In this document: positions 29,375 to 57,099 of the stretch, one piece after another | Layout of the letters: each line of letters starts with the position of its first letter | Numbering within the stretch: the stretch's first letter is position 1 | Source of the DNA: Diacronema lutheri | Lineage: Eukaryota; Haptophyta; Pavlovophyceae; Pavlovales; Pavlovaceae | Assembly: GCA_019448385.1 (NCBI GenBank) | Contig: JAGTXO010000004.1 | Coordinates: forward strand, 1,178,001 to 1,242,000 | DNA: 64,000 nt | Direction of reading: 5' to 3' | The notes under the pieces: model-generated | Told to the model about the DNA's origin: nothing | Databases searched by the model: none | What the model saw: only the letters and a program-made list of their open reading frames with translations | Position numbers and translations under genes: made by a program

Positions 29375-30367
29375 GTAGAGGCCCGCCACCCCCAACAGAG
29401 CGACTGGGGCGAAAAGTACGTTGTTCGCGGCGCCGGCGCAGTCGATGGGCAGGGGCGGCGGGGCGCGCGGAGCGCGGCCATTAGAGCGCGAGGGCACAGC
29501 CTGGATGGCCAAGGCAGGCGTCGTCAAGGCAGCCGACGTTCCAAAGCTTCCGACCGGCGCGGCCGCGCCGGCGGGCGCCTCGCAGCTGTTTGGTGACGGC
29601 CGGGACGGCAAGGACGCGGCAGGACGCGGCATGGGCGGGCACCTACACGCGCCTAGCCACCCCGCCGCACGCGTCCCTGTCGGCCTGGACGCCGTGGGCG
29701 GCGCGGCGCTGCGGCGGCGCCTGCCCGCGCGCCATCTGCGCGCGCGCGAGAAGGAGCTGCACGTGCCCACGCACGACGCACGCGGCGAGCTGGAGGCGCA
29801 CGTGCCGCTCGAGCGCCACTCAAGCGCCGCCCGGGCGACGGCACGCGAGGGCGCGCCCATGCGCGCCATCCACGCGTCCGCATGTGCCCGAAGGTAGCTA
29901 GGAGGTCGGCGAGGCCGGTCGACCACTCGCCAAACGAGCCGACAGCGCGCGGATCGGCGGGAACGAGTTGAGGCGCGCCTGCATCGGGCCCACCTGGCCC
30001 GGCTGCATGCCGAAGAGCTCCTCGTCGAGCTGGGCACACGCGCGCCGCCGCTCGCCGCCGACGGCCGCCGCCCGCCGCTCAGCGGCGTGGCAGCGGCGTG
30101 GCAGCGGCGCGTGTCCGACTGGCCGTAGCGCGAGGGGGCAGTACGAGATCGACGTGAGCTCGCACAGCGTGTGCACGAGCTGAGGCGCCGAGCCCGCATT
30201 GATGAGCACAACGACGAGGTGGACAGTGGGCGCGCGCCGACGAGCAGGGCCGCGCGCCCGGCCGGCGGCACGCCGGCGGGCACGGAGCCAAAAATGTCCG
30301 CGTCCACGCGCCGCGCGTACGTTCCGGCGTATCCGCGGGCGAGCGAGGCGAGCAGGTTGTTTTTAGA
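29375..30367. other. Intergenic region with possible remnant minus-strand gene
   Basis: No confident gene. On the minus strand three adjacent frames each show a short stretch with protein-like composition: DADIFGSVPAGVPPAGRAA (about 30250-30307), then LINAGSAPQLVHTLCELTS (about 30150-30209) and VGSFGEWSTGLADLLATFGH (about 29890-29950). No family is recognised and no splice pattern joins them convincingly. They may be exons of an unrecognised gene or a decayed one. The plus-strand frames look like noise. Confidence 0.3.
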
Positions 30368-30992
30368 GAGTTCCGTACTTTTCGACGTTTCAAACTTTGC
30401 CTCCGTACTTTTCGACTCTTCGTAGAAAAGTAAGGAGGCGCCGTACTTTTCGACGTGTCATTCCGTACTTTTTGACGCGCAGCTGAACTCACTTAGCTCT
30501 CTGCTGCTTGAGCTCCGGGCAGCTCCTCTTGTTGTGCCCGGGCCTCCCGCACTGCTTGCAGCAGTTCTGCTTCCGCGCGTTCACCTCGCCATGCGGCTGC
30601 TGCTGCGCGCCCATGCTTGTCTTGCGGCGCTTGTTGGGAACGTCTTCAGACGAATCATCGTACTCCTCCCAGTCCTCCTCGCCGCCCGTCGGAGGGGGCG
30701 CCGGCGCCGGCGAGCCAGCCACAGCAAAGCAGTGGCCGCACAGGTAGTCGCCGTCGCCCTCGCCGTTGCAGACCTTGTCGCAGAAGATGGCCGTGTGGAT
30801 AGGGCAGCGGCATCCCCGGCACAGGTGCCACCCAGTCACCTTGGACTTCTCCACAGCTGCCACGTCTGCGTCGCTCGCGCCGTCCTTCGCACGCGCTCCA
30901 GTATAGCACGCGCAGCACCACTTTGTGCCCGGGGGGCGTAGACGCGTCCCGTTGGTTGTAGCCGTCGATCATGGCGAGCGAGTTGTCACCTG
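30368..30992 (+). repeat. 625-bp direct repeat, left copy
   Basis: Aligns without any gap to 32811-33435, with a scatter of single substitutions. It includes the transposon terminal region and the whole zinc-knuckle frame. Identity stops at CAGGTGACAAC read on the minus strand, a sequence that looks like a splice acceptor. Confidence 0.9.
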
Positions 30993-32790: not shown

Positions 32791-32810
32791 CAACAAAGAT
32801 TACTTCAAGG

Positions 32811-33435
32811 GAGTTCCGTACTTTTCGACGTTTCAAACTTTGCCTCCGTACTTTTCGACACTTCGTCGAAAAGTACGGAGGCGCCGTACTTTTCGACGTG
32901 TCATTCCGTACTTTTTGACGCGCAGCTGAAGTCGCTTAGCTCTCTGCTGCTTGAGCTCCTGGCAGCTCCTCTTGTTGTGCCCGGGCCTCCCGCACTGCTT
33001 GCAGCAGTTCTGCTTCCGCGCGTTCACCTCGCCATGCGGCTGCTGCTGCGCGCCCATGCTTGTCTTGCGGCGCTTTTTGGGAACGTCTTCAGACGAATCA
33101 TCGTACTCCTCCCAGTCCTCCTCGCCGCCCGCCGGAGGGGGCGCCGGCGCCGGCGAGCCGGCCACAGCAAAGCAGTGGCCGCACAGGTAGTCGCCGTCGC
33201 CCTCGCCGTTGCAGACCTTGTCGCAGAAGATGGCCGTGTGGATAAAGCAGCGCCATCCCCGGCACAGGTGCCGTCCAGACACCTTGGACTTCTCCACAGC
33301 TGCCACGTCTGCGTCGCTCGCGCCGTCCTTCGCACGCGCTCCAGCATAGCACGCGCAGCACCACTTTGTGCCCGGAGGGCGTAGACGCGTCCCGTTGGTT
33401 GTAGCCGTCGATCATGGCGAGCGAGTTGTCACCTG
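32811..33435 (+). repeat. 625-bp direct repeat, right copy (second MULE fragment)
   Basis: Same length and orientation as 30368-30992. It starts at the GAGTTCCGTAC terminus and ends exactly where a 44-nt hairpin begins. It represents only the 3' end of a second MULE; the rest of that element is replaced by unrelated sequence. Confidence 0.9.
32833..33306 (-). CDS. Zinc-knuckle fragment of the second MULE copy
   Basis: Encodes the same Cys-rich zinc domain and CCHC knuckle (CKQCGRPGHNKRSC) as the frame at 30489-30863, with a few residue changes. One former Cys position reads Trp (CRGWRCF instead of CRGCRCP). The frame runs on about 30 residues further than the left copy because the stop codon differs. 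The catalytic and SWIM parts are not present next to it. Confidence 0.6.
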   Translation of the reverse strand: MAAVEKSKVSGRHLCRGWRCFIHTAIFCDKVCNGEGDGDYLCGHCFAVAGSPAPAPPPAGGEEDWEEYDDSSEDVPKKRRKTSMGAQQQPHGEVNARKQNCCKQCGRPGHNKRSCQELKQQRAKRLQLRVKKYGMTRRKVRRLRTFRRSVEKYGGKV

Positions 33436-33478
33436 TCAACCAAGCCCCGCCGCTGTGCCAGCGGCGGGCTTGGTTGAC
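33435..33478. repeat. Near-perfect 44-nt hairpin at the MULE fragment border
   Basis: Left arm GTCAACCAAGCCCCGCCGCT, five-base loop GTGCC, right arm complementary apart from one bulged C. It starts at the last base of the 625-bp repeat, so it marks the junction with the sequence that replaced the second MULE. Confidence 0.85.
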
Positions 33479-35317
33479 GCCGTCTTGCCGGGGCCCTTGC
33501 GCCTTGCGGCGCGAGCGTCGCGGAGGGGCGTCGGCTGCGCTGGCTCCGCGTCGGCGGTGGCGTGGGGCAGGCTCTTGTGGAGGGCGGAGCGCTCGCGCAC
33601 GAGTCGGTTGCCAAGGCGGGCTGTCTGCGTGCCGTCGGGCTGCGCTTGGGCAGGTAGGACCTGCGGCCTCGGGGGCGGGCGGGTTTTCGTGTTGGGCCAG
33701 GCGGCAGCGCGCACCGGCCGTGTTCGCGGCCGGCAGGCGGACGTCCGCAGCGGGGCGGAGAATGCGGGTGAAGCGCTTGCATGGGCGCGGTTCGCACCTG
33801 GCGGCCAGGCGATCACGAACCGTTGGGTCGCCCGGCTGTTTGGTGGAGCTGAGGGCAGCAAGGATAGCGAGCTTGGCCGCCTCATCGGTGACGAGCGGCA
33901 CTGTTGCCCAGCTCTGTGCCTCGAAGCCCTGGATGTGCAGGCGTCGGGGAAGTTCCCGGCAGCGTCGCCTGCGTCCGTCGAGAGGCGGACCGAACTCGCG
34001 CCCGTGCCCCCGTTGGCGACACCGAGCTCTCGCTCGTTCACACCGGCCCGCCGACGCGGGCGCGTGGTGCGCGCGCGTTGGGTGCGTGTCTGCCTCGAGC
34101 AGCGTGCCCAGTCGCAGTGTGGGCGCGTGTCCGTCTGCCTCAAAACGCCGCGTGGAGGGGAAGGCGCGGGGCGGGCTCGCCGAGGAGGTGCCGCCGCTCG
34201 CTGCCACCCGGCGCGGGCTCGGGGCAGCCGTCTTCGGGTGCCGCGCTCTTCGCGCCATGCACGAACGTTCCGCCGCGCTCGCAGCGCGCGAGCGCACACA
34301 TAGAGCGCGCGGCGACCCCGGCGGGGGCAGTGCGTCCCGGTGGCACTCGCGGGCGCGCGCCTGGCCTGGGCGCAGCTGGGCGCGTTGCCGCCCGCGCAGC
34401 GAGCCGCCCGCGCGCCTCGCCGCGCGCGCGCTTCGTCGCACGCGTGCGCCCTGCACGCACGCGCACAGCGCGCGGCGGCTCGGCGCAGTGCAAGGCAGAG
34501 CGTGCTGCAACGGTTGCGAGGGCGCGCACGCGCGGCGCGGCGCGCCCCTGTGTGCGTCGCCTGCGCGCGGCGCGTGGTCCGGACGCAGCTGGGTGGCGTG
34601 ATGCCGTTCGTGCAACACAGTGCGCGTGAGAGCCGCACGTGCACACCCGCAGTGCAACGCGGCATTGCGCGCGTTGCGTGGGCGGAGCGCGGCTGGATGT
34701 GCTCGAGGTCGCGCGGCATGCCGCACGCCGCGCGCTGTGCGGCGCAGCGAGTCGGCCATGCCCCTGGTCCTCGTCTCCGGGGGGGGGGGGGGGGGGGGTG
34801 GTGGAGGCAACCAGGATCCGCCAGCGCGTGGTGGGCGCCGTCCAACACCCAACCAGAATGCGCCCCGTTCTTCCCCGACACTCTCCGTCCAAACCCGCCG
34901 CCCAGCCCGCCGCCGCAACCGCCGCCAACGCCGCCGCGCACCCATCCGCCGAGCTCACCGCGCGCGCGCTCGCGCTCACGTTGCGCGACGAGGCTGCGCA
35001 GGCCGGCGCGCGGCCGTGCAGAGCAGCGCAGGCCGGCGCGCGGCCGCGCGCGCGCGCTCACGTTGCGGCCGCGCAGCGAGCTTTCGCCGCGTCGCAGCCC
35101 CTCCGAGCAGCCACGATGCACGCCCCCGGAGGACGTCGGCCGCGCTCGGAGGCCGCGCTCGGGCGCGCAAAGAGAGGCGGCGCGGGCAAACGAGTAGGCT
35201 CGGCGCGCTGGCGGGTCCTGGTTGTGGGAGAGCGGGGCATTCTCCAGGGCATCATGTAAATTCTCCCAAGTATCATCCGGGCCGCCATCCGGACACTGAC
35301 GTGTCCACAGTCTGCAG
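33479..35317. other. Unrecognised, repeat-rich region upstream of the protease/Fanzor locus
   Basis: No gene could be assigned. A minus-strand frame at about 33470-33960 has protein-like composition (VPLVTDEAAKLAILAALSS) and runs open into the second MULE fragment; no family is recognised. A run of 20 G lies at 34779-34798 (C on the minus strand, followed by AG), so it could be a polypyrimidine tract of a minus-strand intron. A GC-rich tandem pair occurs at about 35002-35052. The last 100 bases before 35318 presumably hold the promoter of the next gene. Confidence 0.35.
34779..34798 (+). repeat. Homopolymer run of 20 G
   Basis: Uninterrupted G tract. The same kind of tract occurs at 49628-49666, 52374-52396 and, as C, at 43279-43293. 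Two of the four lie just upstream of a splice acceptor in the transcribed strand. Confidence 0.9.
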
Positions 35318-37765
35318 ATGGAGGACTCCGTGAAGGACGCCTTGCGCGGCGGGCTGGGCAGCTCGGACAGTTTCTCGCTGGCCCTCAGCACCACCGTGGC
35401 GAACGGTGTGCGCCACCCCCACGTGGTCCCACCCGAGTGCGTCCTCGCCCTGCTGCATGGCGAGAGTCTCGGCCCGAGCGTGGTCAAGGTGGAGTTCAAG
35501 GCGTGCTCGAAGCATGCGCTCAAGGTGGCGCTGCGCAACCTGGGCAAAGCATGCGCGGATGCGGACCGGCTTGGGCAGGTGCTCGTGGTCGTGCTACCAC
35601 TCTGCCTCCGCGCGTCCAGCGGCCTCGATCACTGGACGGCGGCGTACCTGCTCCTCGCGCCGCCCGCGCAGCCCGGCGCGCCGCACGGCGCCGCGCTCGC
35701 CCTGCACGCCGATTCGCTCAGCTTGGGCAATGGCGAGTCGGCGCACGCCACGGCGGCCGGCAAGCTCATCACGACGCTCGCCCAGCGCATCGGCATCCCA
35801 GCGCCGCCCATCGATGCCTTGAAGGCGCCCGCGCAGAGTGGGAACGAGTGTTGCTTCGCCGCGGCAACACTCGCGGCCGAGGTCGCGGCGAGCGCAGCGC
35901 CGACGGCGGGCCGCCGCGCGAATGTCCTTGTCGGGATCAAGAAGGCTTTGAACGCGCGCCTCACGCGACTCACGACGGCCGCGTACGAGGAGACCCGCAA
36001 GCGCACGCTCCACGCCGCCGTCGGCGCTCTGCTCGACGACGGCGCCAGGCGCTGCGGCGCGTTCACCGACGAGGCCGCGTGGCTCGCCGAGGCCGCGCGG
36101 CTCGCCGAGGCGTGCGGTGCCAGTGTCGGCGGATCCGCGCCCGACGGGCTGCTGCGGGCCGTCGAGGCGGCGCTGTGCGCGCCCGCCGACCGCATCGCAC
36201 GCACGGCCGCGCTCGACGCGCTCACGGGCGCTGCAGGCCGCGCGCTGTCGACGGCGGCCAGGCCGCGCGGCGCGGCGGCGTCAAGGCCGCCGTCGCGAGC
36301 GCCACCGCCGCGTGCGCCGCAGCGGCGCGCCGCCTCGGCGTGGGGGCACCGACCATTCAGCAGCCTCGGCGTGGGCGAGGGCGACGGGGGCGATGGCGAC
36401 GCCACCACCGCTGACGACGGGGAGGACGAGGAGGACGGGGACGACGACCTCTCCAACGACGATGCGGGTCACGACACCGACGACGACTCCGCCGACGGCG
36501 GCGACGGCGACGGCGGCGGCGGCGGCGACGGAGGCGACGGCGGCGGCGGCGGCGGCGGCCAAGGCTCGCCGTCGGCAGCCCCAGAGGACTTCGCGCTGGC
36601 CAGCCCCGAGGCGGTGCTCGAGCTGCTCGCGGCCGCCGCGACTGTGCGCGAGCAGCTGGCGCTCGCCTTTGCGCCGTCCGGCGGCGCGCGCGGCGACGCG
36701 CTGGACGCGAAGCGCGCGCCCTTTGAGGTGCTGCGCTCGCTGCTGGTGCGCGTCGCGCGGCTGTCGGACGTGCGCGCGCGGCTGCGCCTCCGCCAGCTGC
36801 TGCTCGCGCTGCGCGATCCGCGTTGCGCTGCCAAGCGCTCGCGGCGGCGCACGGACGAGCTGCGCGACGCGCGCCGCGTCGCCGAGCGGCTCGTCGCCGA
36901 GCTGCACGTGGCCCTGCCCGACTGGCAGCTCTTCTCCGGCGTCTGCGCCGCCGAAGACGGCTCGGCCGACGCGCCGTTCACGATGCTGCGCGTCGCGCCG
37001 CGGCCGAAGCAGCGCGGCGCGCCGGGCGTGCGCGACGTCGCCCAGCTGCTCGGCGGAGTGCGGCTCTCGAGCGCGCCGCGTGCGCTGCTGGTCGCGATCG
37101 ACCGCCCGTCGGCCGACAAGGAGCCGGTCGAGCTCGGCGGGCCGGGCGGCGGCGGTGGCGGCGCGCTCGTGCTCGGCACCGTCGGCGGCCCCGACGCGAC
37201 GTTCGCGCTGGCGAGCGTGCTCGTCCAGCGCCGCGGCCGCAAGCGCGACGCCTGCGCCGTGCTCGCGCCCGCGCCCGACGGCGGCTGGTGGCGCGTCGAC
37301 GGCGGCGGCAAGCAGCGAGACAACGCTGGCAGCGCGGCGGCCGAGGCCCGCGAGCTCGCCGTGGTCGCGCTGTACGAGCGCGTCGAGCCGCACGCGCCGG
37401 CGCGCCGAGTGGTCGGCGCGGCCGACGAGGCGCGCCTGTGCGCCGTCGCGCGCGCGCTCGACGCGCACGGCGAGCAGGTGTGGCGGTGGGCGACGGATAC
37501 GGCGCCGCCGCTCCGCGACGCGCTCGACGTGCTGCGCGTCGGGGCGGACGCGCCGTCGGCGTGCGCCGCGCTCGCCGCCGCCGAGCTCGCGCCGCTCTTC
37601 GCGCGCGCGCACGTCGACGGCGCGTGGGCGGCGATCGACGGCGACGCTGTGCTCGCGGAGGCGCGCAGCGCGGCCGACGCCGACGGCGTCCGCAAACGCA
37701 CGCGCCGGTCGACGCCGTCACTCCGCCCCAGGCTCGTCGTCGCGCTGCGCGATGGCACAGGCTGA
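35318..37765 (+). CDS. Ulp1-like (C48) cysteine protease with a degenerate USP-like domain
   Basis: 815 residues from ATG 35318 to TGA 37763-37765. The N-terminal domain has the Ulp1/SENP catalytic order: His105 in LDHWTAAYLL, Asp132 in LHADSLS, Gln173 and Cys179 in QSGNECCF. An acidic Asp/Gly-rich linker follows (about residues 345-425, nucleotides 36360-36570). A C-terminal domain resembles the end of ubiquitin-specific proteases (LASVLVQRRGRKRD, then GGWWRVDGG, then ELAVVALYERV) but lacks the catalytic His, so it is probably inactive. Known Ulp1-like enzymes cleave SUMO or related modifiers; some transposons carry them. The frame continues directly after the stop, which suggests one original long gene with the Fanzor part downstream. 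Confidence 0.65.
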   Translation: MEDSVKDALRGGLGSSDSFSLALSTTVANGVRHPHVVPPECVLALLHGESLGPSVVKVEFKACSKHALKVALRNLGKACADADRLGQVLVVVLPLCLRASSGLDHWTAAYLLLAPPAQPGAPHGAALALHADSLSLGNGESAHATAAGKLITTLAQRIGIPAPPIDALKAPAQSGNECCFAAATLAAEVAASAAPTAGRRANVLVGIKKALNARLTRLTTAAYEETRKRTLHAAVGALLDDGARRCGAFTDEAAWLAEAARLAEACGASVGGSAPDGLLRAVEAALCAPADRIARTAALDALTGAAGRALSTAARPRGAAASRPPSRAPPPRAPQRRAASAWGHRPFSSLGVGEGDGGDGDATTADDGEDEEDGDDDLSNDDAGHDTDDDSADGGDGDGGGGGDGGDGGGGGGGQGSPSAAPEDFALASPEAVLELLAAAATVREQLALAFAPSGGARGDALDAKRAPFEVLRSLLVRVARLSDVRARLRLRQLLLALRDPRCAAKRSRRRTDELRDARRVAERLVAELHVALPDWQLFSGVCAAEDGSADAPFTMLRVAPRPKQRGAPGVRDVAQLLGGVRLSSAPRALLVAIDRPSADKEPVELGGPGGGGGGALVLGTVGGPDATFALASVLVQRRGRKRDACAVLAPAPDGGWWRVDGGGKQRDNAGSAAAEARELAVVALYERVEPHAPARRVVGAADEARLCAVARALDAHGEQVWRWATDTAPPLRDALDVLRVGADAPSACAALAAAELAPLFARAHVDGAWAAIDGDAVLAEARSAADADGVRKRTRRSTPSLRPRLVVALRDGTG

Positions 37766-38559
37766 AGGGTCGTGGCGCTGCTCGTCGTGCTGCCGCCGCG
37801 CGCGGCGGGCGCCCCCGCGAGGCCGCTGCTCGTCGCGCCGCGCGTCGGCGGCGACGACGACTGGCGCATCGCGCGCGCGCACGTCGGCCAGCTGCGCAGC
37901 GCGGAGCTGCTCAGCACGGAGCCGACGCACGTCGCGATCGGCGGCGTCGCGCGCGCGAAGCCGCACGTCCTTGCGCTCGAGCTCGCGCTGCTCGCGCGTG
38001 CGGTCGTGTGCCACGACCTCGGCGACGCGTGGGCGCGCTGCACGAGCGCAGACGAGATGTGCCGCAGTGCGAACGCGCACATCGCCGGCCTGCCCGACGC
38101 GCGCGACGGTGTCGAGCGCGCGGCCGTGGCCGTTGCGGCGCATCGCTGGCGGTGGGACGTGCCGCTCGCGGCGCGCTTCGCCGCCGCGTCCACGGCCGCG
38201 GCGCCAACCCCGCCGGCGGCGGCGGGCGGCGGTGGCTCGGCGCCGCTCGGCGCGCCGGTGGCGCACGTGGCGGCGAACGCGGCGGCGGGCGCGCTCGTCG
38301 TGGCGGCGGCGGCGGCCGTCGCGGCACCGAGGGCGCCGTGCGCGCCACGCGCGGGCGCGACGGCTGCGGCGGTGGTGGTGACGGGCACGGCGGCGACGAG
38401 CGCGGTGGCGGAGGGCGCGGCGCCAACCTCGCCGGCGGCGGCGGACGGCGGTGGCTCGGCGCCGCTCGAACGCGAACGCCGCTGCGTCTACACTGCGCTT
38501 GGACAGGGCGACGCGGACGCGCGCGTGTACGACGCCAAGGACCCCGAGAAGCTAAAAGC
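37766..38559 (+). CDS. Continuation of the protease frame after the stop (possible broken or read-through part)
   Basis: The same reading frame as the protease resumes straight after TGA 37763-37765. Its protein-like beta-strand pattern (VVALLVVLPPRAAGAPARPLL) looks like the other half of a hairpin begun before the stop. It ends in Ala/Gly-rich duplicated stretches (about 38200-38480) and at a short tandem duplication (38504-38609), where the open frame changes. Either the gene carries one nonsense change and one frameshift, or it is two genes, or an unseen intron removes the stop. Confidence 0.4.
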
Positions 38560-38609
38560 GGGCAGGGCGCGGACGCGCGCGTGTACGACGCCAAGGACCC
38601 CGAGAAGCT
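38504..38609 (+). repeat. Coding tandem duplication that shifts the frame
   Basis: Two copies (38504-38553 and 38563-38609) encode the same peptide, ARVYDAKDPEKL, the first in the upstream frame and the second in the downstream frame. The offset is 56 bp over most of the repeat, with a 3-bp indel near its start. No GT-AG pair with this spacing exists in the repeat, so it does not behave as an intron. Confidence 0.8.
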
Positions 38610-38700
38610 TGAGGCGAACAGCGGGCGCGCGCCCGCCGTGGTCGGCACGCTCGACGCGCAGGCGACGGGCACGATCGTCACGCAGCAGCGCCCGGAGGTC

Positions 38701-41126
38701 ATGACCGGCGCGGAGATGCACCGCCTCGCCGCCCCGACGCAGGGCGCGGGGTACGGTAACGTCGTGCTGGCCAAGCTGGGCGAGCCCGGCTTCGCGGGGA
38801 CGACATGGCACATGACGTCGGGCGTGGAGAACCAGTTGCACGCGGTACGAGCGGCCGCGCGCGCGTACGCGCTCGACGGCTGGGGCGGCGTGTACAATGC
38901 GGACGAGGACTTTGCCGTCTTCGAGGGCTTGCCGCGGCTCGCCGCGCCCGAACCGCTCGCGGCCATCGCCGGCGGGTCGGCGGACGCGGTGTTCTGCTGG
39001 CGGTCCGGCCGGTCCGTTATCGGCGAGGTGAAGACGGTTCACTTCGATGGCGACCGCGCCGCTGCCATCGAACACGCGTGGGCGCTGCGCGTCAAGCCCG
39101 ATTGGCGCTCGCAGCCCAGGATCTACGAGGCGGCGTGCGGCGCGCAGGGCACGGTGCTGCTCGTGTGGGTCGTGCCCGACCGTCACAAGAACCCGCGGCT
39201 GGACTGGGCGCCGATTCTCGTCGTGATCCACCTGCCCGCCGACCCCGACTGGCTCGCGCGCGCCACGCCGGCGATCGAGAAGGCGTGGCGCGAGGTCGAG
39301 GACGGACGCGCGCTCGCGGAGGCGCGCGGCGTGCCGCAGCACCTCGCCTACACGCTAAGCCCACGCTTCCGAGGCACCGCGCCGCGCGGCGCCGCGCGCG
39401 TGCCGCCGCGCCTCGGCGCGAGCGACGCGCGCGAGGCGCGCGCGCTCGCGGCGCTCGTGTCGGCGCTCATGTTCGTGCCGGCCTGGCGGCGCGCGGTGCG
39501 CGCGGCAAGCCGCGCCCCCGGCAGTGGCGCCGCGGCCGTCGCGCGCGCGCTCGCGCGCCTGCACAACGCGCTCGAGCCCGATGACGAGAGCGCGCCCGAG
39601 TCGGCGCGCGTCGCGCCGCTCGCCGCCGCGCTCGAGCAGTCGGCGGGCTGGCCGGCGGGCACGGCGCGCGGCTTGTCGGCCGACGGCGCGCTGCGCGCGC
39701 TGCTCGACGTGCTGCGCGCGTGCGGCGCGAGCGACGAGCTCGAGCGCGCGCTGCGCGGCGGCGAGCCGCCGGCGCCGGGCGCGCCCTCGGCGCGCGGCGC
39801 GTCGGCCGCGTGGCCGCTCGTCGCGCTGCGCGCCGCCGACGCGCGCGGCGCGAGCGCCAGCGCCGCCGTGTCGCGCGCGCTCGGCGCGCACGGGGTGCGC
39901 AACCCGCCGCGGCTCGTCGTCGTGCACGTCGCGGACGCGACCGAGTCGCTGCTCGAGATGCCCGAGCGGCTCGCGCTGCGCGTCGCGCGCGGCGCCGAGC
40001 CGGCCGAGCCGACCGCGGACGCCGCCGGGGCCGACGCCGCCGCCGAGCCCGCCGCCGTGCTCAGGCTGGTCGCCGTCGTGCTGCGCGACGCGTACGACGA
40101 CAAGGAGCGGCTCGTCGCCTGCGCTGCCCTCGCGCCCGGCGATCGCGACTGGATGCGCGTTGCCGCCGCGAGCAGGCGCGCGTGCACCGCGAGGGTCGCG
40201 CTCGAGGGCCGCGCGCTGCTGCTCGTGTACGCGACCGAGCCGGACGGCGCGCGCGCGCGCGGCGGCGGCGCGAGCGCGCGCGCGGCGGGCGCGCCGGCCG
40301 GCGCGCCCGGCGCGCCGAGTGCGGAGCCGGCCGGCGAGTCGCGCGGCCGCCGCGTCGCGCCGCACCTGCCGCCGCTGCCGCGCAAGCGCAAGCGCGATGC
40401 CGAGGCGCGCGCGCGGCTCGCGGCCGACACCGCGCGCGTCGACGCGGCGGCGCGACCCGGCGGTCCGCCGCTCACGTACACGTGTGGCGGGCGGCCGCTG
40501 TCGACGCACGACGTGCGCGCGCTCCAGGGCAAGTACACCGAGGTGCCTTCGATCGTCGTCGAGGCCGAGCTCGGCGCGATCAACCGCGCCGCGGACAAAG
40601 CCGGCCGGCCGTGGAGGACGGCCGGACCGGCCGTCGCGCGCGCGCTGCTCGCCGCCGTCGCCGACGGCGGCGGCGAGCCCGATCGCGCGCAGGCCGCGCT
40701 GGACGAGCACGGCCTCGGCGAGTGCACGCACCTCGCGCTGCTCTTCGCCAGCACCAATCGGCGGGTCGGCGCGGCCGTCGTGGTCGTCGTGCGCGACGGC
40801 GAGGGCGGCTGGGTGCAGCACTACAACCCGACCGCCGCGCCGGAGCGCGCCACGGGGGCCAAGCCGATCGCCGTGCGCGAGCGCGCCAAGGAGATCGAGC
40901 GCCAGGCGGAGCAGCTCGTCCGCGGGCTCGCGCGCGCGCTCCGCCTGCGCGCGCTTCCGCCCGTCGACGGCGCTGCGCCGGCGACCGCGCGGTCGGCGCA
41001 GCCGACGGCGCACGGGCGCGCGGTCGGCGGCCGCTGGCGCGTCGAGCGCAGGGCGGATTCGCGCGCCGCCTGCGTCGTGGTCATGTCCTGGCTCGCGCTC
41101 GGCGCGCGTGACGCCGCCGCCGACGT

Positions 41127-41159
<33 letters not shown>

Positions 41160-44100
41160 TGGCGGCGGCGACCAGAGCGCGCTCGCTGCCGCGGCGAGCG
41201 TGCTTGCGCTCAACGTGCACGCGACGGCGCAGCTCGCCGAGTACCGCGCGGCGGTGTTTGCGCTCATCCTGCGCGAGACGGCCGCGCAGCTGCGAGCGCG
41301 CGACGCGGCGGTGACGCAGCAGCCGGTCGCGTCCGCGCCGGCGTCGGCGGCGCCGACGCCGGGGGAGGCTCGTGCGCGGTGCCTGAACGAGCTCAAGGCA
41401 TCGGGCGGCAAGCATGCGGTCGTGGCGCCCGCCGCCATTGACGGCGTGCTCGCCCAGGTGCGCGACCCGGCGCGCGGGTTCCGCGCCTTCTTCGGCCCGG
41501 GCGAGACGCGCGCGCTGCTCGACGCGCGCGACGCACGGCACGGGGCCGCGCAAGAGCGGCTGCGCGAGCGTCTCGACGGTACCGACTGCGACGCGCTGCT
41601 GCTCGTCCACTCGCCGAGCGACGGCGCCGACCCGCAGCTCCTCCTCCTGCTCGCCGCCGACGAGCACGGCGCAGGTCCGAGCGGCCGCTGGCGCCGGTTC
41701 CTCCTGCTCGAGCGCGCGCCGCGCGATGGCGCGGCGGGCGCGGCGGCGACAAGCTGGGCGGGCGGGCTCGTCGCGCGTTTGTTCGGCCGCGACGCGACGC
41801 TCGAGCAGCTGCGCCGGTCGGAGCGCTCGCGTGCGTACGTGCCGCCCGCCGGCCGCGCGGGCGTGTGGGCGCTCGCGCTCGCGCTGTGCGTGCTGCGCTT
41901 GGAGCGCGGCGGCCTGCTGGGCAACGCCGGGCGCGTGTGGCCGCGCGAGCGCGACGCGCAGGCGGCCGGCTGGATGCTCGAGGCGTGGCTGCGCGCGGAG
42001 GCCAAGCGCGAGGCCGCTCTCCTCACGTCGCCGGTGAGCACCGCGCCGGCGTCCGGGCGCGGCGCGGCGGCGGCGCGGCCGCGCGCGGCCGGCGCGGTCG
42101 GCGGGGGCGTGCTCGCGTGCGGCGAGTGCGCGGAGCCGGCCGCGACGCCGCGCCGCGCCGCGCGGACGGCCGCGCCGGCGGCCGGCGCGGCCAACGCGTC
42201 CACCTGCGCGTGCTGCGCGAGCGCCGAGCCGCCGGCCGAGCCGCCGGACGCGACGGGCGAGCGCATCGCTTGCCTGCAGAAGCCGAAGGGCTGGCACACG
42301 GAGTACCGGACCCTGGAGCTCAGCGACGGCGCCTTTCGCGGGCGGGCAAAGTACGGCGTCAAGCTGATGCGCGTCGTGGACGAGGCGAACGCCAGCACGC
42401 GCATGACGTACAACGTGCTCAACGACCGCGCGCACACATCGCTGCCGAACGCCGGGCAGTGCTCGCCCGGCGACGAGCTGCAGCGCCCAGACGACGAGCT
42501 GAAGGGCTACCCCAAGGGCGAGGACGACGTGGACAACCTGATCCGCCAGATCGAGCTGCCGCCCGACCAGAAGGGCGGCCATCCGCTCGGCGAGGCCAAC
42601 GCGGCGCAGCGGGCGCGCAACCAGCGGCACATTGACCGGCTGTCGCAGGGCGACGCGCCGACGGCGCGCTCGCACCCTTCGCTAAAAGGCTGCGTCGACG
42701 CCGAGGCGGAGAAGATCTTCACCGCGTACAAGATGCACCCGCGCCGCGTCGCGTACAAGCTGCTGCGCAAGCTGCTGCGCGCGGCGATCGACGCGGGCGA
42801 GGCCGCCAAGCCGCGCGGCGCGCGCACGTCGAATGAGCAGCGCGACGCGGACGTCGCGACGCTGCTCAAGCTGCTGTGGTCCGGCGCGGCGCCGCGGCTG
42901 CCGCCCGCGCTCGCGCAGCACGCCGACTGGCTCGTGCTCCCATGCGACTACAGCACGGATGACCCCAAGGTCAGGCACACGACCAACTACTTCCTGACGG
43001 TGCGCGCGCGCGCGCGCGCGCGCGCGCGCGCGCCGCGCGGCGCGCGCGGGGACGGAGGGGGCTACGCACGGGCCGGCCGCGCGACGGTGGCCGCGCCGTC
43101 CGCGCGGCGCGCGCGCGTGCCGCGGCGCGCCCCGCGCGCGCGCGCTCCGCGGCGTGGCGCCGCGGCCGGGCATGGACGGGCGCGCGCCGCGCGGACGACG
43201 TGCCGCGCGCGCGCGCAGCAGGGCCACGGCGCGCGGAGCGCTCGACGGCACTGATGGCGTGCTCCCCGACCTCCCAAACCCCCCCCCCCCCCCTTCCTTC
43301 CCTCGCGTGCGCCGCGCAGCCGGATAAGGCGGCGATGGGCGCGTCGCTGCTCGCGCGCCTCGCGATGCTCTACACGCACGTCACCGGCGAGCCGCCGCCG
43401 TACGCGCTCTGCCCCCGGCGCGGGAGCATGCAGAAGCGCTTTGTCGACCTGACCGCGCAGGACCTGTACCTCCTGCTCGACGAGGACGACACGGCCTTCG
43501 TCCGCGAGTGGGCGCGCAAGCTGCCGACGGCCGACGGCGTGCCGCACGGCGACCCGCACAGCGCGACCAGCGACCCGCGCGTCAGGGACATGATCTTCTC
43601 CCACTTCGTCAGCCTCGACGAGCGGGCGATGCGGTGGACAGGCCAGCAGCTGCCCGGCAGCGACGTGACGGCGGAGCAGCGGCCCACGTATGTCGGCACC
43701 GCCGTCCCACCCGCGACCGCGTCCGCCGGACCGCAGCCGGCGGTGTACCTGCGCCACAACGGCCACGCCTGGCTGGCGGTCGTGCCGGTGTTCAAGCCGC
43801 CGCCGCCCGGCGGCAGCAAGTCCTTCCTCGACGATTGGCGCGATCCCAACGGCACGTTCGACGAGGCGACGCCCAAGCAGCTGGCCGAGGCGATCGAGGT
43901 GCACGGCCTCAAGACGGCCACGGTGGACCCCGGCTCCGACGGCTTCGTGACGTACGCGCCGAACGGACACGGGCTCGAGCCCACCTCGGTTCGCCTCACG
44001 CAGCGCGAGCGCGCCGCGCGCGCGGGGCACGCGCGCGAGCGCAGCAAGCTCGAGGGCGCGAGGCAACGGCCGCTCGTCGAGCCGGGCGCGCGCGCCGGCC

Positions 44101-44975
44101 CGTCGGGGCCGGGCGGCGCGCGGCCGCGCGCGCCGCGTGCTCCGCCGACGGCGGCCGCGCTCGAGGCGGAGCTCGGCGCGGCGCACGGCGGGCGCACCGC
44201 GCTCGGCGCGAACGACCAGGCCGCCTACGCGCGCGCGCACGAGCGCGCGCGACGGGCTACGCTGCCCGTGTACGGCGCGCGCGCGCGGCTGCGCGCGCGC
44301 AAGCGGCGCGGCGGCGCGAGCCGGCGCGAGTGCGCACGCGCGGCGGCGCGGATCGTGCGCGCGCACGCGACCGACCGAGGGCTGCGGCCAGACCAGCTGC
44401 TCGTGCTCTTCGGCGATTGGCTCCACCGGTCGCGCGGCGGCGGCTTCGTGCGCGGCAAGGCGCCGGCGCTCGGCGTCGGCCTGCTGTGCGCGCTGCGCCG
44501 GCGCGGCGTCGCGGCGACGCTCGTGCCCGAGCCGCTCAGCTCCAAGTGCTGTTCGCAGCTGCGCGAGGTGCGGGGCGCGCCCGCTGCGAGCGCGGCGCCG
44601 GCCGCCAACGCCGGCGCAGGCGCTCCCGCCGACGACGGCGCGCCGACGACGGCGGACGAGGCGGCGGGGCAGCCGCCGCAGCTGCAGCGATGCGGAGGCA
44701 CGCTGCACCCGTACGCGCGCAGCTCGCCGAGCGGCCGCGGCGCGTGGCGGGCGACGCGGTGCGACGCGTGCGGCATCATCTACCACCGCGACTGGACGGC
44801 GGCGCGCTGCATCTACCACGATGTGCTCGACATGGTCGCCGACCACCTCGGCAGGCGTGAGCGCATCACGTCCGAGCCCGGTCGCTTCAAGCGCGTCAAG
44901 GCCTTTTGGCAGCGCGCCCTCGGTCGCGAGAGAGAGCACGACGAGGGCGTGCTGCAGGTGGACGAAGACGAGGCG

Positions 44976-45014
<39 letters not shown>

Positions 45015-45057
45015 TCCGGCGGCGGCGGTGGCGGCGGCGGCGGCGGTGCCGGCAGCC

Positions 45058-45098
<41 letters not shown>

Positions 45099-45749
45099 TC
45101 CGGCGGCGGCGGTGGCGGCGGCGGTGCCGGCAGCCGCGGCGGCGGTGCCGGCGGCGGCGGTGCCGGCAGCCGCGGCGGCGGCGGCGGCGCCGGCGCCGGC
45201 GCCGGCGGCGGCGGACGCGGCGGCGGACGCAGCGGCGGCCGCGGCCGCGGCCGCGGCAACGGTGCTGGTGCTGCCGGCGCCGCCGAAGGTGCCGCTGCCG
45301 CTGCCGCTGCCGCACACGCCGCCGCCGCCGCCGCCGCCGCCGCTGCCGCTGCCGGCACCGGCACGACCGGCGGCAACGCGCGAGGTTCGCTCGCGTCCGC
45401 ACGCGACGCGGCGCCGGAGGCGAAGCGCCAGCGTCGCGTCAGCACGGCAGCCGCGAACGGCGCAGCCCCTCGCCGGTCGGCGGCGACCTTGCGGCGGGGC
45501 GGCTCGGCCAGCCCGAGCACGCGCGCCACGCCCCCGGGCCCGAAGCGGGCACGGGCGAGCCGCAGTGGCGCACAGGACGCGGCCGCCGCCGTGCGCGCGC
45601 GCGCGCACGCGGCGCCGCGCGTGGCGGCGCCGCGCGGCGGCGCAGCCGGTGGCGCGACGAGGCGCGCCTGCCACACCCTGCTGAGAACAACGCTTCATGG
45701 CGATCTTCAGCCTCAGCACGAGCCGCTTGCGGCTTCGCACGCCCCGTAA
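38701..45749 (+). CDS. PD-(D/E)XK nuclease - degenerate protease domains - Fanzor RNA-guided nuclease fusion
   Basis: Join 38701-42999 and 43320-45749. The 320-bp intron has donor GTGCGC, acceptor CAG and a C15 tract. ATG 38701 is the first Met after the frame change, but the frame is open upstream. A YqaJ/lambda-exonuclease-like domain comes first: Asp in ADAVFC, then GEVK, then QPRIYE (about 38930-39150). Two regions resembling Ulp1/USP folds without catalytic residues follow (about 39900-40250, 40480-41100), and perhaps a third (41380-41990). The C-terminal part is a Fanzor/TnpB nuclease: RuvC-I Asp in TVDPGSDGFVTY (about 43920), RuvC-II Glu in VPEPLSSKCC (about 44525), a zinc finger with CDACG, and RuvC-III Asp in YHRDWTAARC (about 44785). 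A Gly/Ala-rich tail follows. Fanzors are known as RNA-guided DNA nucleases, often carried by transposons. The triad is complete, so this part may be active. Confidence 0.7.
43279..43293 (+). other. C15 polypyrimidine tract before the Fanzor splice acceptor
   Basis: Run of 15 C, then CTTCC repeats, ending about 25 bases before the CAG acceptor at 43317-43319. It sits where a polypyrimidine tract is expected. The 5' half of the same intron is a long GCGCGC tract (43002-43032). Confidence 0.7.
44978..45370 (+). repeat. GGC/GCC low-complexity tail of the Fanzor gene
   Basis: Runs of Gly codons broken by Ser/Ala, then Arg-Gly and poly-Ala stretches, following the last RuvC motif. It encodes a disordered RGG-like tail (for example GRGGGRSGGRGRGRGN) that could bind nucleic acid. 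Such tracts are prone to length change and assembly error. Confidence 0.85.
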
Positions 45750-47811
45750 GGGTCGTATATACCATGAAGACCGTGTCGATGGCCATCTCGTAGATGCCCA
45801 TGAAGAGCGCGGCGATCATGTAGGACGCGACCAGCACGATCAGGCATGGCAGGATGATCGATGAGGTGTTGAGCTGGAAGAGGGGGATGACCGTGAGGAG
45901 CAGCGCGCACAGGCCGGCACACGCGAGCGCGACGAAGAGCTTGCCGAGGAAGAGGAACGCGTCGCCGACCGTTTGCACCATCCCGAGGGCGGCAACGTTT
46001 GAGACGAGGTACCCAAAGGAGTGGCGCGCCGACGAGCAGAATGACTCGGACTCGATAGCGACGAGGATGTACGCGTTGCGCGAGATGAACTCGAGCGCCT
46101 TCTCAAAGCAGCGCAGGCAGCAATCGATGCAGCACCAGATGCACCTGACGAACCCGCCGTAGCAGCGCGCGTCCGGGTCCGCGTACCGCTTCAGAAAGTT
46201 CATCGCGTACCGCACGTACTTGACGATTGCGACGAGAAGTGAGCCGAAGACGATCGAGCCAAAGTGGTAGCGCAGGACGCGCCACGTCGCCGTGAGCACC
46301 GGCGACGTGCCCAGATCGTCCGGCCGCACCTTTGCAAAGTACCACTGCACAACAGACATCGCGACCACCGCCCACGTGAGGTGGTTGAGCAGCACGCCCG
46401 TCCACACGCAGCCAAAGAAGTGGTACGCGAGCGCGCCCTTGAGGTTGTCGTCGTAGACGATTTGCGCGACGCCCGACCCGTCCACCTTCAGCTCGCCAGC
46501 CGAGAGGATGTAGAAGGCGCCGATCACGAAATAGAGCAGCGTGCAAAAGGCGAGGAGCGCCGGTGCTATTGGCACGAGCAGCAGGCCGGGAAGCGCGTGC
46601 AGCGCCTTGGACGCCTCGATGATCACGCCGCACGCGAGGAGGATCTTGGACCAGAAGCAGCAGAGGAAGAGCACGTAGAGCGCGAGGCTCGCCGCGCTCG
46701 CGCCGAAGAAGCCCATCGTCACGTCCGCGTACACGGTGAAGTCGCGCTCGAGGCCGTACAGCGCGCTGCCGCGCATCGAGTCGGCCTTGAGCCAGAGCGT
46801 GACCGCGGCCAGGGCGAGGGCGAGGAACACGCCGACGATCGTCGCGAACACCATCGGCCTGATGAAGAGCCGCATCAAGAAGGCCCAGACGAAGCCGAGG
46901 ACGACTGCAGCGCCCGTGCACGCTAGAATCACTGGGAACGCCGCGTACGCGTCGGCGACGATCCGGAGCGTCGCGGCGCCGCCCGCGCCGAGTAGGCTCT
47001 CGGTCGCCGTTTCGATGAAGCCGAGGTCGAACCGGTCGCCGAGCACCGTCGCGACCGCGTCCTTGTTCTCGGCGATCCACCCAACATCGGGCAGGCAGAT
47101 GGCGGTCGAGCCGTACCGCACCGTCGGGTACGACGGGTAGCAGACGGTGCACTCCTGCGCGTCGTTGGGCAGGGTGTCGGCGCACGTGCTCGCCCCCTTA
47201 AGCAGCACGATCGAGTTGAAGTAGTCCACCTGCGCGCGCAGGTCCTCGCTGGCGGACGCCTGGAAGTCGCGAAAGTCGGCGATGAACTTGTCCATCCCTT
47301 TTCTCGTGAACTCGGCGATCTCGGGCAACCCGTCGATGGACAGGTCGGGCCGGTTGCTCGTGTCGTAGTACTTGCCCGTACACACCCATCGGCTCGGCTG
47401 CCAGCCGATGCCGCGCACGTCTGAGTTTGGGCACTCGCTCGTGCAGATGCCCACGAGCTGCGACGCCCAGCGCGGCCGGCCGGGCGTCAGCGCGTAGTAG
47501 AGCGGCCTGGCGGCTAGGTCCTTGCCGCCGAGGCGGATGGACTTGGTGCCCGTGCCGTTTGCCAACCGCACATCCTGCTCGAGCGACGCGAGCCCGCGCG
47601 CCGCCGCCGAGTTGTCCCTGCCGCACTGGTCAAACTTGTAGTCGAGCCCGTACAGCAGGCGATCGGGATCGCCGTGGAGGAAGCCGGTGACGGAAACGTA
47701 GAGCATGCCGCCCCACACGGCGAGGAAGAGCAGCGTGCACAGCACGTCCGTGCACTTGCGCCCTTTCGGGGCGCCCGGTGCCATCGCCTCGAGGGCATTG
47801 TCGGAGGCCAT
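45439..47811 (-). CDS. Choline transporter-like protein, SLC44/CTL family
   Basis: 790 residues from ATG 47811. The N-terminus is diagnostic: GRKCTDVLCTLLFLAVWGGM, then GDPDRLLYGLD and a Cys-Gly, as in CTL proteins. A long Cys-rich extracellular loop and about ten membrane helices follow. The family motif region GFVRCIWCCIDCCLRCFEKA and the end FMGIYEMAIDTVFMVY are clear. CTL proteins move choline (and related compounds) across plasma or organelle membranes. The natural family end falls near 45740; the remaining 100 Arg/Pro/Ala residues look like an extension into antisense of the Fanzor tail, so the true C-terminus may be shorter through an undetected intron. No intron is needed in the body. 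Confidence 0.88.
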   Translation of the reverse strand: MASDNALEAMAPGAPKGRKCTDVLCTLLFLAVWGGMLYVSVTGFLHGDPDRLLYGLDYKFDQCGRDNSAAARGLASLEQDVRLANGTGTKSIRLGGKDLAARPLYYALTPGRPRWASQLVGICTSECPNSDVRGIGWQPSRWVCTGKYYDTSNRPDLSIDGLPEIAEFTRKGMDKFIADFRDFQASASEDLRAQVDYFNSIVLLKGASTCADTLPNDAQECTVCYPSYPTVRYGSTAICLPDVGWIAENKDAVATVLGDRFDLGFIETATESLLGAGGAATLRIVADAYAAFPVILACTGAAVVLGFVWAFLMRLFIRPMVFATIVGVFLALALAAVTLWLKADSMRGSALYGLERDFTVYADVTMGFFGASAASLALYVLFLCCFWSKILLACGVIIEASKALHALPGLLLVPIAPALLAFCTLLYFVIGAFYILSAGELKVDGSGVAQIVYDDNLKGALAYHFFGCVWTGVLLNHLTWAVVAMSVVQWYFAKVRPDDLGTSPVLTATWRVLRYHFGSIVFGSLLVAIVKYVRYAMNFLKRYADPDARCYGGFVRCIWCCIDCCLRCFEKALEFISRNAYILVAIESESFCSSARHSFGYLVSNVAALGMVQTVGDAFLFLGKLFVALACAGLCALLLTVIPLFQLNTSSIILPCLIVLVASYMIAALFMGIYEMAIDTVFMVYTTLTGRAKPQAARAEAEDRHEALFSAGCGRRASSRHRLRRRAAPPRAAPRARARARRRPRPVRHCGSPVPASGPGAWRACSGWPSRPAARSPPTGEGLRRSRLPC

Positions 47812-47895
47812 GGCGAACGGCAGCGCCGCCCACCGCAAACGGCCGGGGCTATTCTTATGGCGTGTTCAAACGAACGTTGAGACTGGAAAGCGGCC
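47812..47895. promoter_or_regulatory. Shared divergent promoter interval, CTL / GH16
   Basis: 84 bp between the two start codons must hold both promoters. It has a short AT-richer stretch (GGCTATTCTTATGGCG, about 47847-47862). No specific element can be named with confidence. Confidence 0.35.
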
Positions 47896-49626: not shown

Positions 49627-49667
<41 letters not shown>

Positions 49668-50474
49668 GGGGGGGGTTTGTTGAGTAGCCCGCGCGTTGGG
49701 AAGACGGCCGCAGCGCGTGCGGCCGCGGCTCGCGCAGCGCACACCGAGGGCCGCCGACACCCACACTGCGCACGCGGTCGTGACGCCGCGGACGGGCACT
49801 TGGCTACCGCTCCCCTTCCAGATGACCCCCGCGCCGATAAAGCCGACGCCCGTGCATACCTGCGCCGCGGCCCTGCCCGGATCGCCGCCGTGCGTGCCAA
49901 AGATGACCGCGAGGGTGTACAGCGCAGAGCCGACCGCAACGAGCGTCATCGAGCGAAGGCCGGCGGGCCGATCGGCGCTCTTGCGCTCGAGTCCGATGAT
50001 CGTGCCACACGTGGTCGCGACGAGCAGCCGGAACGACATCAGCCGCACGAGCAGCAACTGCTCGCGGAAAAGGTGCGCGTGCGCGGTGCCAAACGTCAGC
50101 TGCACGCGGAGCACGTCCACGACCCACGGCCACGTCCAGAGGAGCAGGAGCGAGACGAAGGAGCGGGCGATGCGAGCTGGACGGCCCAGATCCGTTTTGA
50201 GGAGCCGCTTGATCCTGCGCGAGATGACCGCCGGCGGCGGCGCGCCGGCGGCCGCGCCGGCGGCGATCTCCGCTCCCGCGCCCGCCGCGACCTTCTTCGC
50301 GGCCCCGTCGGACGCCATGCGCGCGGCGAGCCGGCTCGGCGCGCCAAGGGCGCGCTGCGCGGGTACCGTTGCCGACCACCGCCCAACGAGCGCGCGCGGC
50401 CGCACGCACGCTGTGGAGGACGAAGCCCAACAGCTCAAGCCCAACAGGGCGGCGACGCGTAAGGACGTCGCCAT
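49453..50474 (-). CDS. MgtC/SapB-family membrane protein, plastid- or ER-targeted
   Basis: Join complement of 50474-49745 and 49607-49453, 294 residues. The 137-bp intron (GTGTGC...GCAG) contains a 39-base C run on the coding strand. The family core is clear: RLLVATTCGTIIGLERK, RPAGLRSMTLVAVGSALYT, then ICTGVGFIGAG-type spacing (QVCTGVGFIGAGVIWKG) and GVTTACAVWVSAALG. The second exon completes the last helices. In bacteria MgtC-type proteins are membrane regulators linked to magnesium and acid stress. The first 50 residues look like signal plus transit peptide. Divergent from the DUF4336 gene by only 26 bp. Confidence 0.85.
49628..49675 (+). repeat. G39 homopolymer plus G8 inside the MgtC-like intron
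   Basis: 39 consecutive G (49628-49666), one A, then 8 G. On the coding (minus) strand this is a C tract that ends about 20 bases before the CAG acceptor, so it serves as or replaces the polypyrimidine tract. The exact length is likely uncertain in any assembly. Confidence 0.85.
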
Positions 50475-56483: not shown

Positions 56484-56538
56484 CAGCTTCGCGCCAAGCC
56501 GGGCGCGGTGTGGTGCGGGTGCGCGCGAGCGCGGGCGC

Positions 56539-57099
56539 ATGGCGGGCGCACAGGGGAACACGCACATCCCGTGCATCCATCGCACGGCGGATGGCGCCTT
56601 CCGCGGTGCCTACATCGGCGTTGTGTGGGGCGGCTACTTTGCGCGCGAGCACCTGCGCGAGGCGGCGCACAGCGCCGGGCTGCCGAGCGGCTACCCGCTG
56701 AGCACCGCGGCGCTCAAGGTCGGCCGCTTTGTCGGCGCGCACGTCCTCGGCTTCTCCCTCTTCCTAGGCGGGTACAACGCCTTCCAGTGCAGCCTCGAAC
56801 GCACAATCGGGCAGGACAGCGGGCTCACGCCCATCGTTGCGGGCGCGACGCTCGGCGCGCTCGCGAGCTGCATCCTGCCCACGCGGCCGACGGTGCCGAG
56901 CATCGCCGCAGGCGCGGCGGGCACCGCCTGCGCGTGCTACGTCGTTTCGCGCTCCTTCCTGCCCCCGCCGTCGCGCTCAGGGTCGTGCGCGCGCGCGAGC
57001 ACGCCGGCGTGCGCGGACGTATTGGGCGCGGCGCAGCCATGCGGAGCTTGCGCACGGTGGTCAGATTTGTCGTGCGCTTCCGCGCCGAGCCAACGCTGA
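56539..57099 (+). CDS. Tim17/Tim22/Tim23-like small membrane protein
   Basis: 186 residues. Gly-rich membrane helices with a Tim17-type pattern: [33 protein letters not shown], then a [13 protein letters not shown] link and [13 protein letters not shown]. The family comprises inner-membrane translocase subunits and several other organelle membrane proteins, so the exact role is open. The C-terminal 50 residues are Ser/Ala/Cys-rich and may be disordered. It starts 55 bp from the divergent PurK-PurE gene. Confidence 0.5.

Follow-up and report, generated by a model that had tools for sequence, protein, structure and literature searches.

A probable Fanzor exon closing a long multi-domain coding run in the haptophyte Diacronema lutheri

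Fanzor proteins are defined by a DPG at RuvC-I together with a glutamate located six residues ahead of the zinc finger (PMC10711439), and their motif has been formulated as D-X(125,275)-[TS][TS]-XX-C4 zinc finger-X(5,50)-RD (PMC3627910). Fz1 proteins are mostly 600-700 amino acids (aa) long (PMC11423790), and the biological roles of Fanzors are unknown (PMC10432273). We describe a locus of Diacronema lutheri lying in a stretch of 64,000 nucleotides (assembly GCA_019448385.1, contig JAGTXO010000004.1, positions 1,178,001 to 1,242,000 of the forward strand; hereafter the window, numbered from its first letter), in which a probable Fanzor exon closes a coding run of about 3,076 codons. The observation itself, of a Fanzor-type exon that closes so long a multi-domain run, is real and out of the ordinary. 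We read the locus, with evenly balanced confidence, as one large eukaryotic gene, or its recent remains, for a multi-domain nuclease protein with the Fanzor at its end; the Fanzor gene would stem from a mobile element or from capture and have been fused into this protein. An original prediction, made from the letters alone, had lined up here an Ulp1-like protease, a PD-(D/E)XK nuclease and a Fanzor.

The likeness to Fanzor1 and Fanzor2 (PMC3627910, PMC10711439, PMC10432273, PMC11423790) comprises the DPG, the relocated glutamate, the CxxC, the RD at RuvC-III and a spacing within the published range. Whereas most Fz1 proteins are compact (PMC11423790), the Fanzor part stands here at the end of that long run, and its first zinc knuckle is divided by an insert of 46 residues. 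PGv-1, an element of the Mariner type, likewise has a Fanzor alongside another nuclease (PMC3627910). There, the GIY-YIG nuclease is a separate protein next to the Mariner transposase, whereas here the nuclease-like domain belongs to the same open reading frame (ORF), and neither a transposase nor a terminal repeat was detected with the nuclease-Fanzor gene. The Ulp1-carrying Mutator-like elements (MULEs) Kaonashi and KIU also bring an Ulp1-type domain near MULE sequence, and the available part of their description mentions no Fanzor (PMC13317346); in our case, the MULE relic stands apart on the opposite strand and has no end motif in common with the gene's right flank. Finally, Helitrons that carry a VTD or OTU deubiquitinase domain similarly unite cysteine-protease and nuclease domains in a transposon protein (PMC9741609). 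They possess RepHel, while no Pfam match of that kind was obtained here.

The original prediction knew of no Fanzor fused to such a nuclease and protease. In the literature, no Fanzor fused to Ulp1 or to a YqaJ/exonuclease was found among the matches listed, in a search covering few subscription papers and no supplements. Where Fanzor and Ulp1 appear together in the literature searched, Ulp1 serves as a purification reagent, and the available parts of PMC10711439, PMC3627910 and PMC10432273 make no mention of such a fusion.

The probable Fanzor part

Judged from its motifs, the C-terminal part of the run is very probably a Fanzor. Both defining marks are present, the DPG within VDPGSDG at RuvC-I and the relocated glutamate (Ealt), with cysteines at +6 and +7. 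Set against the published motif (PMC3627910), 203 residues lead from the aspartate to SS, followed by a CxxC and, 5 residues later, by RD, the first zinc knuckle being split. The three RuvC acids named by the original prediction are indeed found, inside a fingerprint pattern that occurs once in the six frames, in none of 50 residue-shuffled sets of ORFs of at least 180 aa and in none of 2000 shuffled gene sets; this pattern, fitted to the present sequence, tolerates a broad gap within the zinc finger. A looser Bao-Jurka pattern also occurs once, starting at an upstream D, versus 0.14 per shuffled set. The exon is free of stops over 550 aa.

Profile searches, proposed along with the prediction for each domain, gave a modest match for the Fanzor part and no usable one for the protease and nuclease. 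PF07282 (OrfB_Zn_ribbon / Cas12f1-like_TNB) matches the exon with E 7.8e-4 and 20 bits, under its curated cut-off of 26.3. With viral TnpB/Fanzor2 profiles, the Fanzor ORF comes top of 701 real and 701 reversed ORFs for all four (E 0.014-0.046), the alignment spanning the zinc finger and RuvC-III only. Compared by hhalign with viral Fanzors, the exon scores 32.4 versus a shuffled maximum of 19.8 (0/60 as good, E 7.7e-4), and a second local alignment brings the RuvC-II glutamate and cysteine in register. The PHROG match, to a transposase family, reaches just E 0.23.

In the viral contigs scanned, a zinc-finger DNA pattern picked out 52 stretches, 28 of which gave an ORF of more than 200 aa with the motif and then RD; the Fanzor2-type and Fanzor1-type DNA patterns picked out none. 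The 'all' profiles comprise 25 distinct ORFs and the 'dpg' profiles ten hand-picked DPG members, after dropping L021, L028, L031, L040 and L043 (printed motif the same as that of a kept member) and L047 (DPG not seen). Contigs L004, L019, L030, L033, L034, L037, L039, L044, L045 and L051 carry TnpB/Fanzor2-type proteins with DPG and a glutamate at the relocated position.

Upstream, the region at the site of the Fanzor N-terminal part gave no match to Pfam or PHROG profiles. The interval that separates it from the RuvC exon is strongly indicated to be an intron within the Fanzor. A two-intron gene of the window, which we take to be that of ribosomal protein S17e, is spliced likewise (GTGCG...GCAG; 164 and 143 nucleotides, nt) to a complete-looking protein. 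The nuclease and Fanzor had been predicted to share an exon; this holds for the Fanzor N-terminal region, and the RuvC acids lie beyond the intron.

Table 1. Features of the locus, in window coordinates
Feature	Position	Strand	Basis and remarks
N-terminal Ulp1/C48-like segment	35318..36280	+	His 35630, Asp 35711, Gln 35834, Cys 35849 in order
Segment S1	36905..37426	+	possible internal repeat of S2; by-eye likeness to C-terminal half of a USP-type deubiquitinase, unconfirmed
In-frame TGA in coding run	37763..37765	+	same-frame codon signal on either side
56-nt tandem duplication	38512..38567 / 38568..38623	+	copies 89% identical; coding frame changes here
Stop-free stretch of 1,462 aa, single ORF	38614..42999	+	coding signal; holds PD-(D/E)XK-like domain, S2, more segments and Fanzor N-terminal region
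PD-(D/E)XK (YqaJ / lambda-exonuclease-like) candidate	38701..39378	+	D 38983, E 39025, K 39031, Q 39112, Y 39124
Segment S2	39787..40245	+	possible repeat of S1
Two more segments	40477..42030	+	by-eye degenerate cysteine-protease-like, identity unconfirmed; Smith-Waterman z 4.3 to each other
Region at site of Fanzor N-terminal (REC/WED) part	42256..42999	+	position only; ORF common with PD-(D/E)XK-like domain
Predicted phase-0 intron, GTGCGC...CGCGCAG, 320 nt	43000..43319	+	frame change, C/T-rich tract, local splice style
Fanzor RuvC + zinc-ribbon exon (probable)	43320..44969	+	D 43926 (VDPGSDG), E 44529 (VPEPLSSKCC), CDACG, D 44790 (YHRDW)
Gly/Ala-rich tail, ORF stop at 45749	44970..45749	+	two short basic clusters KRQR, KRAR; coding status uncertain

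The coding run and its candidate domains

The GC content of the window is 72.4%, at which long open frames arise by chance (the opposite strand carries one of 1,108 aa), and the one-gene argument therefore rests on codon bias rather than on ORF length. GC by codon position, together with codon usage for which six other ORFs of the window served as training set, reveals a + strand coding series over about 35318-44970, with host-like codon usage. The best-supported frame (start modulo 3) is 2 until about 38450, 1 for 38600-42999 and 0 from 43320 to about 45200. By codon usage, another frame is preferred in the 150-base steps at 36200, 36800, 38450, 42200, 43100 (in the intron), 44000 and 45200, several of these falling in low-complexity stretches. 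The 1,462-aa stretch displays coding bias across nearly its whole length. The run has its first ATG at 35318, and an additional exon further upstream is possible.

At the other end, the locus had been extended to 45749. The coding run itself stands, and 45749 is a formal ORF stop only, the coding signal weakening past a Gly-rich repeat at 44976-45257. Little space is left at the right flank, where the tail overlaps the ORF of a choline-transporter-like gene on the opposite strand (45442-47862, - strand; PF04515, E 6.6e-77). The two basic clusters of the tail are possible nuclear localisation signals.

The protease-like segment contains, as predicted, a full His-Asp-Gln-Cys set. Its strict pattern occurs once, and in 0/2000 shuffled gene sets; a looser one was seen in 28/2000. 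Nucleases of the PD-(D/E)XK superfamily of YqaJ / lambda exonuclease type display the order D...(D/E)xK...QxxxY, and the candidate here takes the form D-x13-E-V-K...QxxxY. This pattern is found once in the gene, once more in the window (26219, - strand) and in 45 of the 2000 shuffled gene sets. Both patterns were composed after the sequence was seen. The labels 'Ulp1-like' and 'lambda-exonuclease-like' are plausible at the level of motifs; both failed in the profile searches made here, an outcome that the original prediction had itself named as refuting. AlphaFold2 models, from the single sequence for the protease segment (predicted local distance difference test score, pLDDT, 46.9) and without relatives for the nuclease candidate (pLDDT 38.4), do not allow the fold to be judged; Foldseek returned no matches with either at E 0.001 (71 and 34, respectively, at E 10). 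These predictions weigh neither for nor against the domain calls. A separate Pfam run on the protease-like segment yielded one chance-level match, Bin2_C (E 1.8). The motif residues of all three domains are kept, which we count in favour of a single multi-domain gene.

Between the candidate domains, S1 and S2 align with a Smith-Waterman score of 78, reached in none of 2000 shuffles, and a longer version of the alignment in 4/300. We consider an internal repeat suggestive only; if real, it would link the halves of the gene. S1 also scores 79 with the protease segment (0/300 shuffles), which we take as due to their common Ala/Arg-rich composition. The two segments at 40477..42030 resemble each other (0/150 shuffles) in an alignment that is compositionally biased. 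They have no Pfam match, and the first of them gave two weak PHROG matches of unknown function (E 0.12 and 0.6).

One gene or several

The run is broken at two places, by the in-frame TGA and by the frame-changing duplication, and it is these breaks that divide the possible readings. The shift produced by the 56-nt duplication matches the change of coding frame exactly, an agreement expected by chance in one case out of three. The breaks may stem from splicing of an intact gene, from recent mutation or from assembly error, and given them the gene may or may not still be active. The fusion of the nuclease-like segment with the Fanzor N-terminal region is well supported, since both lie in one stop-free stretch of 1,462 aa; the protease half is joined to the remainder less firmly.

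One could suppose two neighbours of the same direction, a protease-like gene running to the TGA at 37765 and a nuclease-Fanzor gene starting at about 38600-38700, their linkage being adjacency only. The TGA and the frame change would be natural borders, the codon signal dips at 38450-38599 and an in-frame ATG is available at 38701. Yet the same-frame codon signal persists beyond the TGA to about 38450, the 56-nt shift reconciles the two frames exactly and the S1/S2 repeat, possible but weak, bridges the break; we find two genes rather unlikely. At the other extreme, the gene could be intact, with the TGA or both breaks inside unrecognised introns, a possibility compatible with one large gene. 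Frame-keeping candidate introns (GT[GA][CA]G...[CT]AG) do exist, six that could bypass the TGA and twelve that could bypass both breaks. Many such short splice signals are, however, to be expected in DNA of this kind, most of the DNA that they would skip displays coding-type codon bias and no candidate of this style removes the duplication alone, so that an intact gene seems to us somewhat improbable.

A third explanation sees a Fanzor gene in decay, either borne by a transposon or captured, the long upstream ORF being no longer functional and the non-Fanzor motifs partly fortuitous in Ala/Arg/Gly-rich sequence. The TGA and the frame shift point in this direction, as do the restriction of usable profile matches to the Fanzor part and the frequency of the PD-(D/E)XK motif in shuffled sets and elsewhere in the window. 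Nevertheless, about 9 kb of codon-position bias with just two breaks, the retention of the Fanzor catalytic acids and the absence of stops from the 1,462-aa stretch and the 550-aa exon argue against decay, which we judge quite unlikely.

Returning to one large gene or its recent remains, a series of results weighs against it. The TGA and the duplication lie between the half with the protease and the half with the nuclease and Fanzor; the coding run bears out the three parts in one locus seen by the original prediction, and its 'perhaps one protein' meets these interruptions between protease and nuclease. The predicted zinc finger is likewise half confirmed: CDACG and RD are there, and the first knuckle is no plain CxxC, its second Cys and the Cys of QRCGG being 46 residues apart, so that a working C4 zinc finger is not certain. 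For the Fanzor exon, the hhalign probability is just 25, a global MAFFT alignment with viral Fanzors is out of register at RuvC-I, NCBIfam has no match and phmmer against PDB found no Fanzor/TnpB chain, with a single unrelated chance match. The Ulp1-like and lambda-exonuclease-like identities keep their motif residues and find no echo in Pfam, NCBIfam, PHROG, PDB or structure searches: the protease-like segment has no Pfam match at E up to 1 (up to 10 for residues 1-251) and none in NCBIfam, PHROG or PDB, and the nuclease candidate no profile or PDB match. As to the repeat, a Gly-rich host stretch scores 83 in the same comparison, above the 78 of S1/S2 (once the Gly run is masked, S2 comes first of 500 stretches, 68 versus 62), and tblastn of the gene against the window gave no non-self match below 99% identity at E 0.05.

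To the same series belong the searches around the gene. Fanzors are often, though not necessarily, carried by transposons whose ends can be recognised. No terminal inverted repeat or target-site duplication above chance surrounds it: between the flanks 33440-35330 and 44900-46100 the longest exact inverted and direct matches are 13 nt, equalled in 39/60 (inverted) and 49/60 (direct) resampled controls, and the 16-nt end motif of the neighbouring MULE relic (see below) is missing on the right side. For a guide RNA, Rfam gave no match over 33000-47000, and the fold of 45370-45760, next to the Fanzor end, is not unusually stable (z -1.1; 11/100 shuffles equally stable). Protein queries, which reach close relatives only, confirmed no viral relative among the pattern matches (33 for the Fanzor exon, 3 for the nuclease, 6 for the protease, 4 for the Fanzor N-terminal region and 4 for the middle segments). 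The new accessory or mobile system of the original prediction, with its terminal repeats and guide-RNA region, is therefore not borne out by repeats, RNA signal or relatives.

Relatives, surroundings and possible function

Elsewhere, the nuclease gave 32 pattern matches among prokaryotes, none of them confirmed, and plasmids searched with the protease gave none. Three phage records matched the nuclease in tblastn (best E 0.1 over 18%) and were taken as chance. For 25 of the 52 viral loci, the records contained no YqaJ family (0/25), the same search being positive for two of 14 control genomes; the family C48 was also absent from these 25, and from the control genomes too, which makes this search uninformative. 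The Fanzor exon matched none of 12 viral-locus records, in a comparison without positive control. A profile of S1 and S2 had no match in PDB.

About 2.5 kb upstream of the gene lies a MULE transposase relic (32799-31870, - strand; PF10551, E 8.8e-6, slightly below the cut-off). The 16-nt motif TCCGTACTTTTCGACG has 10 occurrences with up to 3 mismatches, versus 0.4 expected, all of them at 30372-30477 and 32815-32920. Ulp1 domains are known in MULEs (PMC13317346) and Fanzor1 in elements of the MuDr type (PMC3627910), and for this reason a MULE origin of the gene is a lead, not a result. Beside the TCCGTACTTTTCGACG cluster, a 300-nt repeat (30354-30653 and 32797-33096, 96% identical) lies in a zinc-knuckle-like ORF of the - strand. 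By eye, a hairpin whose arms, about 20 bp each, pair almost perfectly edges the MULE-like DNA at 33435-33478.

The window also harbours ordinary eukaryotic genes, namely an AAA gene resembling a replication factor C subunit, the choline-transporter-like gene and a glycoside-hydrolase-16 gene. Positions 1-25113 of the + strand can be read without a stop (8,371 aa, truncated at the edge of the window), and the product has TMEM132-type Ig domains as well as a cohesin domain. Its internal repeats are near-identical (10303-10536 versus 14863-15096 and versus 20491-20724, 98.7%; 1-873 versus 4621-5493, 97% at the protein level). On the - strand, a single ORF at 54267-56609 combines PurK-type and AIR carboxylase domains, and a run of about 48 G, 95% pure, occupies 49628-49675.

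A protease-nuclease-Fanzor system is possible, on the basis of motifs and with two breaks in the gene. In our reading of the locus, the Fanzor part would cut DNA matching a guide RNA, and the tethered PD-(D/E)XK-like domain could trim or further cut the ends. The Ulp1-like part might release pieces by self-processing, or strip SUMO-type tags at the cut site, while the basic clusters of the tail could carry the protein to the nucleus. The most likely origin of the gene is the fusion of a transposon-borne Fanzor to other nuclease and protease cargo.

The boldest form of this proposal, a single eukaryotic polyprotein in which Fanzor, PD-(D/E)XK nuclease and Ulp1-type protease bring guided cutting, the processing of ends and either SUMO removal or self-processing into one effector, appears unlikely to us; if true, the polyprotein would be a eukaryotic multi-domain RNA-guided system. 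If the gene is as we read it, a Fanzor within a larger nuclease protein would represent a naturally occurring fusion for guided cutting, and the domains joined to it would hint at the events that follow the cut.

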